Part shown: in pieces, positions 28,643 to 37,520 of the stretch
Layout of the letters: each line of letters begins with the position of its first letter
Position numbering within the stretch: position 1 is the stretch's first letter
NCBI RefSeq assembly: GCF_036075115.1
Contig: NZ_CP107958.1
Span: 9,052,001 to 9,116,000, forward strand
Length of the DNA stretch: 64,000 bases
Origin: Streptomyces sp. NBC_00377
GTDB taxonomy: Bacteria > Actinomycetota > Actinomycetes > Streptomycetales > Streptomycetaceae
Direction of reading: 5' to 3'
The notes under the pieces: model-generated
Told to the model about the DNA's origin: nothing
The model's input: only the letters and a program-made list of their open reading frames with translations
Databases searched by the model: none
Position numbers and translations under genes: made by a program

Positions 28643-28667
28643 TCCACAGATATTGACTATTGCTCTT

Positions 28668-29011
28668 GGGGGAGGTGTTCGAAGTCTTCAACCCACACGC
28701 ACAGGAGCCGCGTTGGTTGGGTATTCTGCCGCACTCGACCTGCCTCACGCCTTGGTCGAGTGGGTCACGATGCTTATCGTCACCCGCGAGGGTGGCCGCC
28801 GCTGCAAGCTCCCGCCGCACCAGCGTGCCCTGGTCGGCCTGGTGTACCTGCGCCCGCACGACACCCTCGCCCAGCTCGCTGCCGGGTTCGGCATCTCCGT
28901 CGGCATCGCGCACGCCTACGTGGCAGCCGTCGTCGACCTGCTGGCCGACCGCGCGCCCGGCCTGCTACGTGCCCGGCGCGAGGCCGATCCGGACTACGTC
29001 CTGTTGGACGT
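28668..29011 (+). mobile_element. IS5-like element copy B, both ends missing
   Basis: The sequence GGGGGAGGTGTTCGAAGTC and the frame [20 protein letters not shown], then [20 protein letters not shown] and [20 protein letters not shown], belong to the HTH_Tnp_4 N-terminus of an IS5-like transposase. It stops at DPDYVLLD just before the DDE domain. The left terminal repeat is gone and the right side abuts a zinc-ribbon pseudogene. Three other copies or fragments lie at 34068, 35798 and 37119. Confidence 0.8.
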
Positions 29012-29240
29012 GGATGCAGGAAGCCCGGCGGCGCTCAATGACCTTGTCCAATACGGCGTCGACCTGCTTGCCGCAGGTGATGTGCTCTGCCTTCCAGACG
29101 ACTTTGACACTCCCAGGAAAGGGGCGAGCGGTTTCAGGCCAGCCTCCTTCATGATCTCAACGGCGATGTCAGGATCTGTCGCGCGCTGAGCGCATTACCG
29201 GCAGGGGTACTTCGTCTTGCGGGCGTTGTACAGCGTTGAA
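29012..29240 (-). pseudogene. Treble-clef zinc-ribbon repeat protein remnant
   Basis: Minus-strand segments read NARKTKYPCR[12 protein letters not shown], then [18 protein letters not shown] and, after a one-base frameshift, [20 protein letters not shown]. Joined, they match the repeat style of actinobacterial probable zinc-ribbon proteins: CxxC, then an EAGLxPL helix, PGxxxxW, then CGxxV. The TAA near 29198 replaces the expected Tyr codon inside C-R-Y-C, and one C was lost near PFPG. The gene is therefore doubly broken and cut by IS copy B. Confidence 0.5.
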
Positions 29241-29652
29241 CGCACGCAGGGACCTGCTGACGCAGTGCCTCGATGGCCTGCTGCCGGGGCGCCGGGCGGC
29301 GCCGGCCATTCTTGGCCCCTCACGCGCCACGGACGGTCACTGTCGTGATGCAGCGCCATACGCTCAAGGTAGGGCAACGAGCGCCACCTTGACCCGGCCC
29401 GGCCTCTCCCGGCTTCCCAACGGCCGTCTCCGTACGTCCCGTTCGGCCGCCGCCACATCCGGCCGCGGGACCCGCCCCGGTGTCCGCGTCCCGAGCCCGT
29501 CCCAGCGCCGGTCCGTCCGCGCAGGTCACAGCCGTGCCGGCGTCCCGGCGTCCCGATCTCGGCCGGACGCGACCACGACGGGACGTCCGCTGCCAGCATC
29601 ACTCGGGCCGGGAGGGCTCCTGGCGACTCACCAGCAAGAGGAGGAACACCAG
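29241..29652. other. Leader region of the cell-wall cassette
   Basis: About 410 bases with no supportable gene. It should contain the promoter of the muramidase operon; the ribosome site AAGAGGAGGAAC ends eight bases before the ATG at 29653. Confidence 0.4.
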
Positions 29653-31008
29653 ATGGGAAAGAGGACGCTTCTGCGGGGTCTGACCCTCGCCGTGGCAGCG
29701 GTCCTGCCCCTGTACGGGCAAACGGCCATGCAGGCGGCACAGGCCGCGGCCACCGCGGTCGCGGTCTGCGGGCACACGAGTGCACAGCCCACGCTGGAGC
29801 AGGGATCGACGGGGGACGCGACGGTCGAGGCGCAGTGCGAGCTCGACCTCGCGACGAAGCCGAGCCGGTACGCGCCGATCGCGGCTGACGGCACGTTCGG
29901 TACGGCAACGGAGACGCGCGTCAGGGAGTTCCAGCGGTGCGCCGGGCTGAGCGCGGACGGCGTGCTCGGCCCGAACACCTGGGTCGCGCTCAACACCTGG
30001 GCCGCCCAGCCGCACACCTGCGCGACCCAGGGCACGGCGGGCACGGCGGGCACGGCGCAGGCGACCGTGTGCGGCCACACCGACTCACGCCCGACCCTGA
30101 AGAAGGGGGCGAAGAGCGACGAGGTCAAGGAGGTGCAGTGCCGGCTCAACCTCGCCATGGAGCCGTACCACTATCCGCCGCTGACGATCGACGGCGACTT
30201 CGGCGGCGGCACCGAGGACCGGGTCATCGAGCTCCAGCACTGCGCCAACCTCAGCGCCGACGGCACGGTGGGCCCGAACACGTGGGCGAAGCTGGTCGAG
30301 TGGTCCAGCCGTGACACGTACTGCACCCCGCCACGCCCGGCCGGGCACTCGATCGACGGGCTGGACACGGCCAAGTACCAGCACCCGGGCGGTGCGCCGA
30401 TCGACTGGAAGGCCGTCCGTGCTTCGGGCGTCGAGTTCGCGACGGTCAAGGCCACCCGGGGCATGAACGTCACCGACGAGTACCTCCCCACCGACCTGGA
30501 GGCGGCCCGGGCGGCGGGGCTGGCCGTCGCGCCATACCACTTCTACACGGGCTCGGCCGCCGACACGGGTGCCGCGCAGGCCGACCGGTTCATCGCCGCC
30601 GTGCGGGCGACCGGCTACACCGGCAAGCGCGCGGGCGACCTGCCTCCCATCTTCGACCTGGAGCGCATGGACGACGGCAGCGGACGCTGTCCCACCTACG
30701 GCACGGTGGCCGACGCCAAGGCCTGGCTGGACCGGGTCGAGAACGCCTTCGGCCGCGTCCCGATGATCTACACCCAGAAGTCCTTCCTGGACGACTGCAT
30801 GGGGTCGACCACCGCCTTCGCCCGGTATCCGCTTCAGCTCGCGGACTACCGCCAGTCGATCACCCAGCCTCCGCTGCCGAACGGCTCGACGACCTGGGCG
30901 ATGTGGCAGTACACGGACGCCGCGCTCTTCCCCGGCCTGCGGGCGCCGGCGACCGGGGACGTGTTCAACGGCACCCAGGCCGACCTCGACCGCCTGGCCA
31001 ACCGGTGA
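29653..31008 (+). CDS. Secreted GH25 muramidase with two peptidoglycan-binding repeats
   Basis: 451 residues from the ATG at 29653 after AGGAGG. Residues 1-34 form a Sec signal peptide. Two peptidoglycan-binding domains, about 38-123 and 139-224, each carry four cysteines (VCGHT...QC...RC/HC...TC/YC), probably two disulfides per repeat, and the GPNTW motif. From about 233 a GH25 lysozyme barrel follows: IDGLDTAKYQ with Asp238, IFDLERMDDG with Asp335 and Glu337 as the catalytic DxE, and WAMWQYTD near 415. It should cleave MurNAc-GlcNAc bonds in walls outside the cell. Three more secreted-protein genes follow with gaps of 38, 32 and 52 bases, an operon devoted to the wall. Confidence 0.88.
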   Translation: MGKRTLLRGLTLAVAAVLPLYGQTAMQAAQAAATAVAVCGHTSAQPTLEQGSTGDATVEAQCELDLATKPSRYAPIAADGTFGTATETRVREFQRCAGLSADGVLGPNTWVALNTWAAQPHTCATQGTAGTAGTAQATVCGHTDSRPTLKKGAKSDEVKEVQCRLNLAMEPYHYPPLTIDGDFGGGTEDRVIELQHCANLSADGTVGPNTWAKLVEWSSRDTYCTPPRPAGHSIDGLDTAKYQHPGGAPIDWKAVRASGVEFATVKATRGMNVTDEYLPTDLEAARAAGLAVAPYHFYTGSAADTGAAQADRFIAAVRATGYTGKRAGDLPPIFDLERMDDGSGRCPTYGTVADAKAWLDRVENAFGRVPMIYTQKSFLDDCMGSTTAFARYPLQLADYRQSITQPPLPNGSTTWAMWQYTDAALFPGLRAPATGDVFNGTQADLDRLANR

Positions 31009-31046
31009 TCCCGGCCGTGGCCATCACCGTACCGAGGAGGAACACC

Positions 31047-31430
31047 ATGACCGACCGCTTCTCCCGCGCGGCCCTCGTCGCCCTGCTCGCCGTCCTGGGC
31101 TTCACCGTCCCGGCGCCCGCCTCGGCCGCCACCGCCGCCACAAGCTGCTACGGCGGAGCGGTCACGGTCCACTACGGGGAGGTCCGCGACTTCGGTCCGT
31201 ACGTGACCACGAGCCGCTGCACGGACATCAACATGCGGATGACCGGCGGCGACGCCGACTTCGGCTGGGCCTGCGTGCAGTTCGCGAGGGCCAGCGGCTG
31301 TAACTACTGGACCAAGATCGGCCGGAGCTGGACGACCATCGCCACCGACGTCCTGAACGGAACGAAGTTCACCGTGCCCAACGGCGTGGACCTGGAAGGC
31401 AGTTCCGCCACCTTCCAGATCGCCTTCTGA
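31047..31430 (+). CDS. Small secreted four-cysteine protein A
   Basis: 127 residues from an ATG preceded by GAGGAGGAACACC. A Sec signal peptide ends near ASA (residue 27). The mature protein of about 100 residues has four cysteines at 34, 58, 76 and 85 and the segments ATSCYGGAVTVHYGE, SRCTDINMRMTGG and FGWACVQFA. It is clearly paralogous to the next gene, with all four cysteines aligned, so a compact two-disulfide beta fold is likely. I do not recognise a named family. Placement between a muramidase and an M15 peptidase suggests an accessory role at the wall: binding, inhibition or immunity. Confidence 0.8.
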   Translation: MTDRFSRAALVALLAVLGFTVPAPASAATAATSCYGGAVTVHYGEVRDFGPYVTTSRCTDINMRMTGGDADFGWACVQFARASGCNYWTKIGRSWTTIATDVLNGTKFTVPNGVDLEGSSATFQIAF

Positions 31431-31462
31431 CCTCCCGCCCACTTCACCGAACGGAGACCACC

Positions 31463-31876
31463 ATGCTCAAGACCCGGGCGCTCGCCTCGGCTCTCGTCAC
31501 CGTGGCCGCACTGCTGGCAGCGGGTGCCGCGCCCGCCGCCGCACAGTCCTCGGCCGCGGCGACCAGCTGCTACGGCGGCGCGAAGAACCTCAACTACCGC
31601 TACCAGGTGGGACCCAAGGACTACGGGCCGTTCACCACGTCCTCGCGGTGCGGTGACATCAACATGCGGCTCACCACGGACGATGGCGGATTCCTCTACG
31701 CCTGTGTGGTGTTCGTCGAACACACCGACAAGTGCAACCACGACAACACGTACTCCCTGCACGGCACCCCGTGGGCGACGGTCGCCACCGACGTCAAGGA
31801 CGGTACCCGCTTCGTTCTGCGCGTCGGCCCCTACGACACCGACGCGCAGAACGTGAACTTCCAGCTCGCCTACTGA
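31463..31876 (+). CDS. Small secreted four-cysteine protein B
   Basis: 137 residues; signal peptide of about 28 residues (ALVTVAALLAAGAAPAAAQS). The mature part matches protein A: ATSCYGGAKNLNY, YGPFTTSSRCGDINMRLTTD and FLYACVVFVEHTDKC, with cysteines at 36, 63, 81 and 91. It differs mainly by an insert before YGPF and a longer stretch after the last cysteine, so the pair arose by tandem duplication followed by divergence. It has an ACGGAG ribosome site and sits 32 bases after protein A. Function unknown. Confidence 0.8.
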   Translation: MLKTRALASALVTVAALLAAGAAPAAAQSSAAATSCYGGAKNLNYRYQVGPKDYGPFTTSSRCGDINMRLTTDDGGFLYACVVFVEHTDKCNHDNTYSLHGTPWATVATDVKDGTRFVLRVGPYDTDAQNVNFQLAY

Positions 31877-31928
31877 TCTCCTTCCGTACTTCTCGCACCA
31901 CCGTTCCGACTGTTCCGAAAGGACGACG

Positions 31929-32708
31929 ATGACCTTCCTCTTCCGTTCTGCCGACGGGCGCTCCGCCGCAGGCCACCCGCTCGACCGCCGCAGCATGCTG
32001 CGCGGCACGCTGGCCGTCGGCGCCGGCCTGGCGTTGGGCCCGCTGCTGCTCTCCGGTACCGCGCAGGCCTATTCGTGGTCGCGCACCATGAAGCAGGGCG
32101 ACAGCGGCGCCGACGTGCTCGAGCTGCAGATCCGGGTATCCGGCTGGGCGGCCGACAGCGCGAGCCACACCCGGGTCGGCCTCGACGGCGACTTCGGCCC
32201 CGGCACGCTCGCGGCCGTCAAGCGGTTCCAGGCCGCGTACGGCCTCGACGACGACGGGGTCGCCGGCCCCAACACCCAGGCGAAGCTCAACGCGCTCGAG
32301 CAGTCGGACGGCTCCACGGCCCACTTCAACTGGAGCGAGTTCGTGGACCAGTCGAGCGGCACCTTCAACGGCGGCAAGCTGAGCGCTGCGCAGACCAAGG
32401 AGAACGCCCGCCGCTGCATGTACAAGCTGGAGGCGCTGCGCAAGAAGCTCGGGGACAAGCCGATCACGGTCAACTCGGGCTTTCGCAGCATCGCGCACAA
32501 TGCCGACATCGGAGGGGCCAGCGACAGCATGCACCTGTACGGCACGGCGGCCGACCTCGACGTGCCCGGCGTCGCCACGAAGACCGTCTACCAGAAGGCG
32601 GAGACCTGCGGGTTCTCCGGCCTGGAGCGGTACACCGTCGACCACCAGCACGTCGACAGCCGGGCCGACCTGGGCCGCGACTGGTGGTGGGAGAGCGGCA
32701 CGATCTGA
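31929..32708 (+). CDS. Tat-exported M15 D-Ala peptidase with peptidoglycan-binding domain
   Basis: 259 residues. The N-terminus DRRSMLRGTLAVGAGLALGP is a twin-arginine signal, with a cut near AQA (47). A peptidoglycan-binding domain spans about 52-122 (MKQGDSGADVLELQIRV, GLDGDFGPGT, GPNTQAKL). The M15A peptidase domain follows from about 133 (FNWSEFVD), with GFRS at 184-187 and zinc ligands His202 and Asp209 in SMHLYGTAADLD and His241 in DHQHVD. Such enzymes are zinc D,D-carboxypeptidases or endopeptidases acting on stem peptides. It would complement the GH25 muramidase, which cuts glycan strands. Two hairpins follow its stop. Confidence 0.88.
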   Translation: MTFLFRSADGRSAAGHPLDRRSMLRGTLAVGAGLALGPLLLSGTAQAYSWSRTMKQGDSGADVLELQIRVSGWAADSASHTRVGLDGDFGPGTLAAVKRFQAAYGLDDDGVAGPNTQAKLNALEQSDGSTAHFNWSEFVDQSSGTFNGGKLSAAQTKENARRCMYKLEALRKKLGDKPITVNSGFRSIAHNADIGGASDSMHLYGTAADLDVPGVATKTVYQKAETCGFSGLERYTVDHQHVDSRADLGRDWWWESGTI

Positions 32709-32710
32709 CG

Positions 32711-32767
32711 CGGTCGCGGCCCGGCCGCGACCGTGCAGCCCGGGTATCGCGGCGGCGGTACCCGGGC
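32711..32767. terminator. Two tandem hairpins between convergent genes
   Basis: CGGTCGCGG (32711-32719) pairs with CCGCGACCG (32725-32733). GCCCGGGTA (32738-32746) pairs with TACCCGGGC (32759-32767). Both are perfect 9-bp stems in the 67-base space between the M15 gene and the convergent HTH gene, a strong bidirectional terminator. Confidence 0.75.
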
Positions 32768-32775
32768 TTCGCGCC

Positions 32776-33942
32776 TCAGGCCTTGGGCGTGTCCTTCAGC
32801 GCCGCCTCGCAGGAGGGCCAGTCGTGAAAGTCGTGCTGCGCACTCCACAGGCGGTGGGCTGCCTTGATGTTCCACTCCGGGTCGAACGCCCGCAGCGGGG
32901 TGCCGCCGAGCTCGCGCAGGCGGCCGTCGGAGATCTGGAAGACGCCCCAGTTGCGGCTGCCGTTGGTGTTGGGCAGGACCCACAACGGGTCCAGGAAGGA
33001 CGCGCAGCGGGCGACGGCCACTGCGGACGTGGGATCCTCGGTGAACACCTGACGGATCCGCTCCGCCACTCTGACCGGCGACCAGGTCGACATGCTCACC
33101 GTCCGGGCGTAGAGCGCCTTCTTGGTGTCCTCGTCGACCACGTTGTTGGCCGGCAGGCCCGCCAACACCTGGAAGGCGGTCAGCCTGCGCAGGGTCTCCG
33201 GCCCGAAGTCCCCGTCGACGGCGAGCCGGCCCTTCGCCGCCACCAGCAGGCTCTGGACCTCGCGCACGCACTCGTCGTGCTGGCCCATGCTCACCGATCT
33301 GCATGCGGGGGAGTACAGCAGCCCGTCGTCCGCCGCCGGTGACCCGTCGGCGGAACGACCGCCGGGCAGCCACACGAAACCGGCCACCAGCAGCACCGCG
33401 ACCACGGCCGCCAGTACCGCGAAACGGGGAGAGAGCTTCTCGGGCATCCGGGACCGTCCAGGCCGCCCCGCCGTCCCGAGCTCTATCTCCAGCGGGACGA
33501 CGTCGTCCGCCCCCGCGTCCGCCGCCACGGGAGATACGCCGTGCCTGGGCCCGGGCTCCGCAGCCCCGGCCTCAGCCGTGGTTGCCGCCGGGCTGGCCTC
33601 CCGGCTCGCGTCGGCGTCCGATCGTGCCACCGTCTCCGCTCCGGCCTCGGGTTCCGCTGCGGGGCTCTCCTTGGCGGTCCCGGTGGGTGCGTCCCGTTCG
33701 GTGTCCGCCAGTGCCCAGAGCCGGTGGAGGTCGCGGAGCTCCTCCGCACTGGCACCGCACACCTTGGCGAAGGAGTGCACGACCCGGTAGTCCGTCGGAA
33801 CACCGAGCCCCGAGCAGTACCGATGCAGACTGGAACCACTGACGCCCGCCTCCTTGCCGAGACGGTCGTACCCCCGGCCGCTGCGCTCCTTCAGCATGCG
33901 AAGACAGGCGGCGAACTTATCGGTATGCGGAGAGGCAACCAC
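32776..33942 (-). CDS. Membrane HTH protein with external peptidoglycan-binding and degenerate lysozyme-like domains
   Basis: 388 residues from GTG 33942 (AAGGG upstream; TTG 33960 is an alternative). Residues about 10-60 are an XRE-like HTH (LGKEAGVSGSSLHRYCSGLG). A 90-residue Ala/Glu linker leads to one membrane span at about 175-193 (FAVLAAVVAVLLVAGFVWLP). Outside lie a peptidoglycan-binding domain (213-282, VDGDFGPETLRRL) and a lysozyme-like domain (289-380) with NGSRNWGVFQIS and FDPEWNIKAAHRL. Related lytic domains read RCES; here it is RCAS (312-315), so the catalytic Glu appears lost. The layout is that of a one-component receptor that could bind wall material outside and DNA inside. 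It is convergent with the wall-hydrolase operon. Confidence 0.8.
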   Translation of the reverse strand: MVASPHTDKFAACLRMLKERSGRGYDRLGKEAGVSGSSLHRYCSGLGVPTDYRVVHSFAKVCGASAEELRDLHRLWALADTERDAPTGTAKESPAAEPEAGAETVARSDADASREASPAATTAEAGAAEPGPRHGVSPVAADAGADDVVPLEIELGTAGRPGRSRMPEKLSPRFAVLAAVVAVLLVAGFVWLPGGRSADGSPAADDGLLYSPACRSVSMGQHDECVREVQSLLVAAKGRLAVDGDFGPETLRRLTAFQVLAGLPANNVVDEDTKKALYARTVSMSTWSPVRVAERIRQVFTEDPTSAVAVARCASFLDPLWVLPNTNGSRNWGVFQISDGRLRELGGTPLRAFDPEWNIKAAHRLWSAQHDFHDWPSCEAALKDTPKA

Positions 33943-34067
33943 ACTTCCACCCTTGCTCAAGCCCCTACTGACGGGTAGAAGCTACACCGCACGCCGGAGC
34001 GCGTGCGCCCTTTCGCCCATGCAATACGATCGCCATTAGTCTTTCTCTCGACGCAATTCGAAGCAAT

Positions 34068-34289
34068 GTGAGCTCTTTCAGCGTGGCCGCTGATCGGGTG
34101 ACGGGATCGGGGCCCGCAACGCACGAGGCTCCCGTGCCGTTGGGGGAGGTGTTCGAAGTCTCAACCCACAGGCACAGGAGCCGCGTTGGTTCCGTATTCT
34201 GCCGCACTCGACCTGCCCCATGCCCTGGTCGAGTGGGTCACGATGCTCATCGTCACCCGCGACGGTGACCGCCGCTGCAAGCTCCCACC
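34068..34289 (+). mobile_element. IS5-like element copy D, left end only
   Basis: The terminal repeat GTGAGCTCTTTCAG (34068-34081) matches the ATGAGGTCTTTCAG end of copy A at 12 of 14 positions. It is followed by GGGGGAGGTGTTCGAAGTC and the coding start [25 protein letters not shown]. Everything after about 34289 is lost and a different gene remnant follows. Confidence 0.8.
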
Positions 34290-34445
34290 GGCGACGGGCA
34301 CAAGGTGTCGCAGTGGAGCATCTATGACGGTGCCGGCCTGGGACACGGGCCGCGCGCGGCCGCACTGCGCGCGGTGTGCTCCTGCGGTTGGACCGGGCCG
34401 GAGCAGCAACTCGATTGGGATGAGATCGGAGACGGGCAATTCGCG
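34290..34445 (+). pseudogene. Internal fragment of a conserved-looking Streptomyces protein
   Basis: Directly after IS copy D the frame reads TGDGHKVSQWSIYDGAGLGH, then PRAAALRAVCSCGWTGPEQQ and LDWDEIGD. This has the CxCGW style of small hypothetical proteins common in Streptomyces. The start is cut by the IS end and the rest degenerates after about 50 codons. From 34446 to 34876 I see no gene; promoter elements of the downstream oxidoreductase should lie there. Confidence 0.4.
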
Positions 34446-34876
34446 CGTCGGGCTCAGGCGAAGGGTATGCGCTGGTCTGGCGGGTCCTGGCTGCGGGGGA
34501 GTCGGTCCTGCGGTGGTGCCAAGGCCAAGCGTGTGGCCTTCCTGGGGGCTGACCAGAGCCGGGCCGGCGGTATTGGTCCGGGACGAGGGAGTTCCTTCTT
34601 CATGCGGCCGCGCCGGCGGCCCCGGCTCGACGGCGCCCCTGGCCTGTTCGGCCAACGCGCTCCTCCTGTGGTCGGGATCCTCACTGCACCTGAGTAGTCA
34701 CCGTTCATCCGTTCATCCGGAAGTAAACCCGCAGGACAGCGGGTTCCATCGGCGGAGATGCACCGCGTCTGGCGTCCTTGGACACTCCCGACGGGAGCGT
34801 CCTTCCTGGGATCGGCGCGGATGTTGAGTATGTGCTACTCACATGTCCGCGGTGTCGGCCTGATATCGATGGATAC

Positions 34877-35797: not shown

Positions 35798-36572
35798 ATG
35801 AGGTCTTTCAGCGTTGCCGCTCCAGGGTGAGGACCGCTGCTGCGATTGACGACAGTCGATTCGGGCTGCACCGTGCTCTCCGGAAGATACGCCAGGACTT
35901 CTGACGGGCGACTCCGTCCTCGATCGGGGCTCGCACCCTCGACAGCGCCCGGTTTACGGTCTGTTGGGTGAGCGTCAGTTCGCTTCTCGCAGGCCGTCTG
36001 GCCGGTGTGGTCACCCACGCGCCGGCGCCGATGCAAGCGCGATCGGCGAGGATCGGCACCCGTTGGCGCTCGCAGATCCTGATGATCCGGTGGGTACGTG
36101 TGCGGTGAGGTTGTGGCAGCGCCCCGGCAGGGCTGAGGGGACGGCTACAGCAGTCGGCCGTGGGGATCGGTGATCACCCGCACGTTCACTCCATGCCGAC
36201 GGTGCTTGGCCGAGTAGTCGGCCCTCATCGAGGCGGTCGCACTCGGCCAGGGTGCCGTCGAGCAGGACGAACGCTGGGTGCGCCTCACTCAGAGTACGCA
36301 GCAGACCGGGGCGCGGGCGGCCAGGAGATCGATGACCGCGGTGGTGTAGGCATGCGCGGTGCCGACCGAGATGCCGAACCCGGCGGCGATCTGTGCGAGG
36401 AGCTCGTGCTTGCGCAGGTACATCAGAGCGACAACAGCATGCTGGTGCCGTGGGAGCTTGCACTGTCGGTCACCTTCACGGGTGACGACGAGCATGGCGA
36501 CCCACCCGACGAGCCTTGTGCGTAGTGGCCAAGGTTGCCGTGACCCGATCGGTGGCCTCTGAAAGACCTCAT
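35798..36572 (-). mobile_element. IS5-like element copy A, complete ends, broken transposase
   Basis: ATGAGGTCTTTCAG (35798-35811) and CTGAAAGACCTCAT (36559-36572) are perfect 14-bp terminal inverted repeats enclosing 775 bp. The minus strand encodes a transposase in pieces: [20 protein letters not shown] with the HTH segment [20 protein letters not shown] (36495 to about 36290), a shifted middle with HPAFVLLDGTLAECDRL, and the C-terminus VARQKSWRIFRRARCSPNRL to VLTLERQR, whose stop at 35808 lies in the terminal repeat. At least two frameshifts make it non-autonomous. No clear target duplication is seen. Confidence 0.88.
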
Positions 36573-37118: not shown

Positions 37119-37520
37119 CTGAGCTTTTTCAGAGTGGTCACCGATGGGGTGATGGTGAGGTGGGCCGCAACGCACGAGGCACCGGTGCCGTCGAGGGAGG
37201 TGTTCGAAGTCTCAACTCGTCAGCGCAGGTGCCTCGTTGGTTATCTATCCTGCCGCACTCGATCTGCCCCACGCGTTGGTCGAGTGGGTCACCATGCTCA
37301 TCGTCACCCGCGAGGGTGACCGCCGCTGCAAGCTCCCGCCGCACCAACGTGCGCTCGTCGCTCTGGTGTCCTGCGCAAGCATGACACCCTGGCCCGGATC
37401 GCGGCCGGCTTCGGCATCTCGGTGGGTACCGCCCATGCCTACACCACCGCCGTGATCAGCCTTCTCGCTGGTCGGGCACCGGGCCTGCTCAAGGCCCTGC
37501 GCGAACACGAACCGGAAGAT
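37119..37520 (+). mobile_element. IS5-like element copy C, right part missing
   Basis: The left end CTGAGCTTTTTCAG (37119-37132) matches copy A's terminal repeat at 11 of 14 positions. The frame [34 protein letters not shown] is followed by a one-base deletion, after which [20 protein letters not shown] continues in another frame to LLKALREHEPEDRD. The DDE domain and right end are absent. Confidence 0.8.

Follow-up and report, generated by a model that had tools for sequence, protein, structure and literature searches.

A predicted transmembrane regulator of Streptomyces with a pseudo-lysozyme ectodomain and a candidate operator before genes for secreted wall-acting proteins

It has long been asked how Gram-positive bacteria monitor the condition of their wall; the known routes run through kinases, anti-sigma factors and cytoplasmic muropeptide sensors. 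RodZ combines a helix-turn-helix (HTH), a membrane span and a domain outside the membrane. Transmembrane transcription regulators (TTRs) of the ToxR/CadC type (PMC10269533) keep their DNA-binding domain in the cytoplasm, cross the membrane once and carry a further domain outside; the words peptidoglycan, lysozyme and XRE do not occur in the main text of that paper. RsgI of Clostridium thermocellum senses polysaccharide through outer domains resembling enzymes or binding modules and controls secreted enzymes, acting as an anti-sigma factor together with a sigma factor and proteolysis (passages of PMC12203970 and PMC4711584), and RsiV of Bacillus, as portrayed in the passages concerned of PMC4183432, is a receptor in the membrane that deals with lysozyme and the wall. 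The protein analysed here, hereafter the receptor, is encoded by Streptomyces sp. NBC_00377 within a stretch of 64,000 nucleotides (the window). Its presumed layout is that of the TTRs, but it carries a peptidoglycan-binding domain and a pseudo-lysozyme as its ectodomain. Unlike RsgI, it unites an HTH and its outer domains in a single chain, and an anti-sigma domain was not found, the N-terminus being HTH_31 rather than the anti-sigma domain of RsgI and RsiV; and whereas RsiV binds lysozyme, the receptor is itself a dead lysozyme. Among open-licence PMC papers, searched by title and the start of the abstract, we found no description of an architecture of HTH, span, PG_binding_1 and pseudo-lysozyme, nor is it described in the passages concerned of PMC7159879.

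The original prediction, made from the window's letters, was of an HTH, a long linker, a single membrane span, a peptidoglycan-binding domain and a lysozyme-like domain containing RCAS (A314) and NGSRNWGVFQIS. By Pfam, structural models and sequence these parts are present, the presumed span as a hydrophobic helix, and both motifs are as described (Table 1). The gene starts with GTG at 33942 and stops at 32776-32778 on the minus strand. Its HTH_31 match exceeds the Pfam cut-off; the SLT_3 match to residues 305-375 (E 1.6e-5, 25.7 bits) lies under the curated cut-off of 27 in the protein search and reaches 28.3 bits, above that cut-off, at the same place in a six-frame search. At E values up to 1, Pfam returned only HTH_31, PG_binding_1 and SLT_3 for the receptor, and no RodZ or anti-sigma family. 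For the ectodomain, taken from residue 213 onwards, an AlphaFold2 model built on 100 aligned rows reached a mean pLDDT of 95.5 and a pTM of 0.90. The full-length model (77 rows; mean pLDDT 77.5, pTM 0.51) shows HTH-typical helices at residues 5-83, disorder over 86-170, a low-confidence helix at 173-189 within the hydrophobic stretch 171-191 (SPRFAVLAAVVAVLLVAGFVW), and an ectodomain as in the partial model. The HTH_31 match and the model helices thus place a DNA-binding domain in the same chain as the ectodomain.

In a Foldseek search the top match was the lytic transglycosylase 3bkh of phage phiKZ (E 2.4e-5), followed by a phage endolysin and then by hen lysozymes from E 1.9e-3. In VIA-align, the C-terminal domain superposed on echidna lysozyme 1jug with an rmsd of 2.4 over 104 residues and on silkworm lysozyme 2rsc with an rmsd of 1.9 over 99 residues, and the peptidoglycan-binding part of 5nm7 superposed on the receptor with an rmsd of 1.3 over 68 residues. 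The lysozyme Z scores of about 13 stand at the level where small helical folds may match by arrangement alone (the program warns of this for Z under about 13); in this case the sequence motifs are in accord with the structural match. Model and structural matches together assign the C-terminal domain the fold of SLT_3 proteins and c-type lysozymes, as proposed from the sequence.

Table 1. Features of the receptor, its gene block and the candidate operator (positions in the window).
Feature	Positions	Strand	Basis or remarks
Receptor gene	32776..33942	-	388 aa: HTH_31, linker, hydrophobic helix, PG_binding_1, pseudo-lysozyme
HTH_31 domain, residues 10-72	33727..33915	-	Pfam E 8.1e-14; helical HTH in full-length model
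Disordered linker, residues 86-170	33433..33687	-	pLDDT < 50; dN/dS 0.96
Hydrophobic helix, residues 171-191, presumed membrane span	33370..33432	-	Sequence; low-confidence helix 173-189 in model
PG_binding_1 domain, residues 226-277	33112..33267	-	Pfam E 1e-6; 5nm7_G Z 14.0
Pseudo-lysozyme domain, residues 285-380	32803..33090	-	SLT_3; 1jug Z 13.3, 2rsc Z 13.0
Codon of A314, catalytic-Glu position of relatives	33001..33003	-	Alignments
Codon of N331, lysozyme-Asp position of near relatives	32950..32952	-	Alignments
Conserved block directly upstream of Ala-type receptor start, GGTGTAGCTTCTACCCGTCAGTAG...	33943..33988	-	Ala-type Streptomyces loci; distinct from composite element
Candidate operator GGGAC-N3-GGGAC-N38-GGGAC-N6-GGGAC	29488..29554	-	99 bp before GH25 start, reversed to GH25
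GH25 muramidase with PG_binding_1 repeats, first gene of convergent operon	29653..31008	+	Pfam Glyco_hydro_25 E 8.2e-37; start by alignment
Small protein, signal-peptide-like start, no Pfam match	31047..31430	+	ORF, sequence
Small protein similar in kind to the preceding one, signal-peptide-like start, no Pfam match	31463..31876	+	ORF, sequence
M15 peptidase with PG_binding_1, convergent neighbour of receptor	31929..32708	+	Pfam Peptidase_M15_3 E 1.1e-21

The domain has lost the residues by which lysozymes cut. A profile search aligned H-E-S of the silkworm lysozyme 1gd6 on C-A-S of the receptor and NGSKDYG on NGTRNWG, at a weak E-value with both motifs in register; A314 and N331 therefore occupy the two carboxylate positions, the second of which corresponds to Asp52 of hen lysozyme. 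Across 100 aligned receptor rows, at least eight of which repeat a gene already in the set, position 314 is Gln in 51, Ala in 42, Thr in four and Ser in three, and never Glu; position 331 is Asn throughout. The contig scan gave the same picture at the best 80 of 102 matching stretches (Q 43, A 32, T 3, S 2; Glu 0/80), as did 42 rows from order- and phylum-wide searches that carry an HTH by a motif test, some being duplicate retrievals of one gene (Q 27, A 12, T 2, S 1). Those wider searches also returned seven Glu-bearing rows, none with an HTH and only two with Asp at the second position. Among all loci and rows searched, no HTH-bearing protein with Glu at position 314 was seen. By comparison, the nine nearest HTH-free relatives (L121-L129, from seven genomes) all carry Glu at the first position together with Asp at the second, and 16 of 16 further HTH-free SLT_3 proteins have the Glu, with a clear Asp in nine of them. 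Judged from these alignments, Glu has unmistakably been lost, whereas a loss of Asp stands out only in comparison with the nearest relatives and hence is weaker evidence. The prediction that Ala had replaced the catalytic Glu thus extends to the whole family, in which A, Q, S or T takes its place, so that the receptor has neither the catalytic Glu nor the second carboxylate of active SLT_3 proteins and c-type lysozymes. The change at N331, Asp in near relatives, had not been mentioned in that prediction. Among the Foldseek matches are two mutants of hen lysozyme, D52N (3ojp) and E35A (3ok0), which resemble the natural changes of the receptor; in the receptor, however, both positions are changed together and in a membrane-anchored HTH protein.

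Around these positions the domain is strongly constrained: C313, D318, N325, R330, G333, F335, Q336, D339, N358, W375 and C378 are invariant in all 100 rows, and residue 302 is Glu in 97. Such invariant surroundings with neutral catalytic positions would fit a retained binding cleft rather than decay. D318, D339 and E302 could in principle let the domain still cut the wall through other acids, a reading that we regard as very improbable: the relatives that keep a Glu have it at the position of A314, some of them, with ESRLLP in L122-L124, lack D318, and the alignment points to no substitute catalytic residue. For 27 close sequences, the median dN/dS (345-347 of 351 pairs usable) is lowest in the HTH, at 0.07, and highest in the linker, at 0.96; the hydrophobic helix (0.39), the peptidoglycan-binding domain (0.38) and the lysozyme-like domain (0.34) lie between. 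A decaying pseudogene was considered and rejected, the domain being under purifying selection.

The predicted N-terminal HTH likewise folds as such by Pfam and in the model. It is scarcely credible that the receptor is a RodZ-like scaffold in which the HTH leaves DNA alone and the protein ties the wall to something cytoplasmic; RodZ also combines an HTH, a span and an outer domain, but the receptor matches HTH_31 above cut-off and lacks a RodZ domain by Pfam, its HTH is strongly conserved, and it goes together with a DNA element, described below.

Within the genus, 18 of 150 genomes have a match covering the ectodomain. The lysozyme-like profile matched in 43 of 391 genomes of the order, 14 of 394 of the class (seven of them HTH-free) and 8 of 396 of the phylum (five HTH-free), and the contig scan placed receptor loci in eight genera: Streptomyces, Amycolatopsis, Umezawaea, Kutzneria, Lentzea, Actinosynnema, Catenuloplanes and Couchioplanes. 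Such recurrence in 80 orthologous actinobacterial loci, together with the dN/dS values, goes beyond chance. In the 80 best loci of that scan the HTH is in frame in 74, cut at a contig end in four, in another frame in one and missing in one. Contig ends cut L072, L082, L109 and L111; a locus present in the collection as L106, L020 and L180 (one assembly) has an ectodomain with Q and N and no HTH motif in any forward frame; and in L097, L146, L193 and L021 the frame shifts or a stop occurs, within the ectodomain or ahead of it. Where a copy lacks the HTH or is interrupted in this way, either decay or sequencing error may be the cause. Deviating loci include L195, where an HTH-like stretch was seen only by eye and is not recognised by Pfam, and L197, with Met and Arg at the two catalytic positions. 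In genome G567, receptor genes form a tandem pair (L188), the second copy having Gln and Thr there. Among the 42 receptor-type genomes used below, the HTH is not in frame in G026, is separated by a stop in G535 and has diverged in G578 and G834.

The original prediction also placed a convergent operon with a muramidase and an M15 peptidase next to the receptor gene. Pfam identifies these as GH25 and M15, and the link to the receptor proved stronger than proposed, in that the genes form a conserved block and a receptor-associated DNA element precedes the operon. Among 37 loci of the A/S/T type, 33 have a convergent M15 gene, the median distance being 69 bp. GH25 is present in 31; of the six loci that lack it, two have less than 900 bases of sequence on the GH25 side. 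At 43 Gln-type loci M15 occurs once and GH25 not at all. The operon of GH25, two small proteins and M15 looks above all like a target of the receptor. Upstream of the receptor itself, part of the block at 33943-33988 (GGTG-TA-CTT) is also present in other families, and many Streptomyces loci have a TTGAC-N5-GTCAA-like sequence farther upstream. No 7- or 8-mer present in at least half of the loci is common to the Ala-type receptor promoter and the GH25 promoter.

The element emerged from aligning the DNA before GH25 at Ala-type loci and before the receptor at Gln-type loci. Both promoter sets have in common a composite element, opposite in orientation to the gene, with the pattern GGGAY-N3-GGGAY-N38..40-GGRAY-N6-GGGAY, which we regard as a candidate operator. 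Written as one expression it has 39 copies in 780,533 bases of loci, all at GH25 or Gln-type receptor promoters, and it appeared in none of 21,600 single-base shuffles of upstream regions. With up to three mismatches, 32 of 33 GH25 upstream regions contain it in reverse and none in the forward direction, as against 12 of 4,000 random 260 bp stretches; it is found in 27 of 37 upstream regions of Gln-type receptors and in 0 of 37 of the Ala/Ser/Thr type. The gap, allowed to vary from 35 to 41, is 38 in 57, 39 in 21 and 40 in six of 84 distinct sites. In its own genome the candidate operator of Table 1 is the only match to the strict pattern, a backward control pattern also having one match; with three mismatches allowed and the gap fixed at 38, three further, unconvincing places appear versus one for the control, and the half-pattern GTCCC-N6-GTCCCAGC is not enriched there (five sites versus four for the control).

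The element also follows the receptor from genome to genome. Over 391 genomes the strict pattern matched in 22 of 42 with a receptor-type ectodomain versus 5 of 349 without (Fisher 6e-20, one match per genome), counts that, like the others given for the element, come from related, partly repeated and overlapping genomes and loci and are not independent trials. The 42 are the 43 profile-matching genomes minus G541, whose match is a Glu-bearing SLT_3 protein. Half of the 22 sites adjoin GH25 and the other 11 the receptor; the five matches in the remaining genomes adjoin neither. The general pattern was found in 29 of 40 receptor-type genomes (two of the 42 left out) versus 1 of the 40 others that come first in the list, and in 21 of 33 hand-picked receptor-type genomes, most of them from outside Streptomyces or from deviating members of it; the backward control had 0 matches there. 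Of the 33, at least two (the genomes of L069 and L110) also belong to the set of 40, and neither has a match. Two general-pattern sites, one in G274 and a second site in G107, look like chance. In the 300 bp upstream of 15 HTH_31 paralogues with another ectodomain there is no pair with 11-base spacing, and two of them (L029, L032) have one GGGAC pair with 8-base spacing. An RNA element was also considered and rejected: an Rfam search of 29100-34400 gave no match, and the orientation of the element, opposite to GH25 and to the Gln-type receptor, speaks against one transcribed RNA.

The element might instead be the site of another regulator and co-occur with the receptor by chance. The Ala-type receptor promoter carries a different conserved block, and exact copies are absent from part of the receptor-type genomes (from 20 of 42 for the strict pattern and from 11 of 40 for the general one). 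It is, however, nearly absent from receptor-free genomes and sits beside the receptor or its gene block, and receptor genomes have distant copies, one of them before a gene whose product shares the extra domain of that genome's receptor. We judge a second regulator improbable. Copies remote from the receptor or on other contigs occur in G007 (C1:5285994), G079 (C1:6301992 and 6599759, the latter with no clear target gene), G747, G1230 and G661. The G661 site lies on another contig, 106 bp upstream of the gene for a protein that bears a signal peptide and the sequence DRVYLIGPN; the G661 receptor (L189) has an extra C-terminal domain with DRVYLVGPG, and among the loci compared the motif was confined to receptors with this extra domain and the G661 target. 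The extra domain, following the pseudo-lysozyme, was seen in L011, L014, L112, L187 and L189.

The genes behind the element mostly encode proteins that look exported. Of 84 distinct sites, 72 have a reversed gene with a signal-peptide-like start within 10-250 bp, by a lenient rule that 123 of 389 background ORFs also pass; three have a gene lacking such a start, and at nine no gene was called. The distance from the site to the first possible start codon is 91-99 bp in 30 of the 72. In Amycolatopsis GH25 genes the element lies at 54-55 bp, and in a group with the element at 37-38 bp an inner Met, chosen by eye, gives about 95. Besides GH25, the genes encode an M15 peptidase (L054), unnamed small proteins, secreted peptidoglycan-binding proteins (L082, L095, L264), a CHAP protein (L260), an SH3-like protein under the cut-off (L258) and I36 inhibitors (L210, L262). 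At L073 there are two back-to-back genes, one coding for a small protein and the other for a protein that contains PG_binding_1 repeats and matches an M74 peptidase. A relative of the small proteins at 31047-31430 and 31463-31876 (34% identical) also stands behind an element in L073. The scan of the 80 loci gave 13 places outside the defined GH25 and receptor promoters, one of them (L097) upstream of a frame-shifted receptor. Nine of the 13 were examined: six (L054, two in L073, L082, L095, L104) precede genes with signal-peptide-like starts, L066 and L070 give an ambiguous picture, and the place in L107, with three mismatches, looks like chance.

Some of these genes raise the question of the ligand. 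The receptor might be a genuine membrane regulator with a different ligand: its lysozyme fold could serve to bind a protein, such as a small secreted one, an inhibitor of the I36 type or a foreign inhibitor of lysozyme, or the ligand could be another glycan. Elements before small secreted proteins, I36 inhibitors included, would agree with this, as would the anti-sigma factor RsiV, which binds lysozyme itself according to the passages concerned of PMC4183432. We nevertheless consider such a ligand rather unlikely, given that PG_binding_1 adjoins the fold in every receptor aligned, that the residues around the lysozyme cleft motif are invariant and that many targets act on or bind the wall.

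We think it likely that the receptor is a single-pass transmembrane one-component regulator whose pseudo-lysozyme ectodomain probably binds peptidoglycan and whose HTH recognises an operator before genes for secreted wall-acting proteins. The one-component layout follows from a dead enzyme fold joined to a DNA-binding domain by a hydrophobic helix; of the original proposal of a one-component peptidoglycan receptor, the family-wide loss of Glu and this joining have held up, whereas binding of peptidoglycan and of DNA is what we infer. Outside the cell, PG_binding_1 and the lysozyme fold devoid of catalytic carboxylates would hold peptidoglycan glycan or fragments without cutting them. Inside, HTH_31 on its flexible linker would recognise the 67-69 bp operator with its four GGGAC-like half-sites, placed some 50-100 bp before the target genes, in its own genome the operon convergent with the receptor gene. 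Occupancy or clustering of the ectodomain might change the number of HTH domains near the DNA, and the four half-sites would read that number. As the site lies well upstream of the start codon, activation is suggested rather than repression. In many Gln-type relatives the receptor is probably self-regulating, because the element sits between it and a divergently oriented gene whose product is secreted. In turn, the GH25 and M15 enzymes may feed back by making or altering the receptor's ligand, an idea already contained in the original prediction. A broader reading, for and against which we see about equal weight, is of a class of dead-lysozyme peptidoglycan receptors that contain the whole pathway in one protein, in which HTHs clustered on four half-sites set wall-gene expression and ectodomains gain modules that match their targets.

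With a candidate operator for the receptor, protein, operator and target genes can be named together, which makes the question of wall sensing testable at this locus. An enzyme fold appears here turned into a probable sensor, its catalytic positions neutral throughout the family, and receptor and element together provide a sequence rule that predicts secreted wall-acting genes in Streptomyces and its relatives.

In the window, similar short ORF stretches are repeated around the gene block (28653-29189, 34186-34827, 36289-36495 and 37237-37455) and look like remnants of transposases or mobile elements. In Streptomyces phyllanthi (L078) and S. narbonensis (L095), GH25 and a Gln-type receptor point away from each other, and the element between them is weakened, with two and three mismatches, respectively; a divergent receptor/GH25 pair may be ancestral, each clade having kept one half. 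A larger Streptomyces family (L002, L003 and L004 of the same genome; L022-L033) shares with the receptor an HTH_31 containing LHRYC, followed by a long linker and a hydrophobic segment, but has a different, unnamed ectodomain. From the sequences, ectodomains seem to have been swapped on one membrane-HTH chassis.
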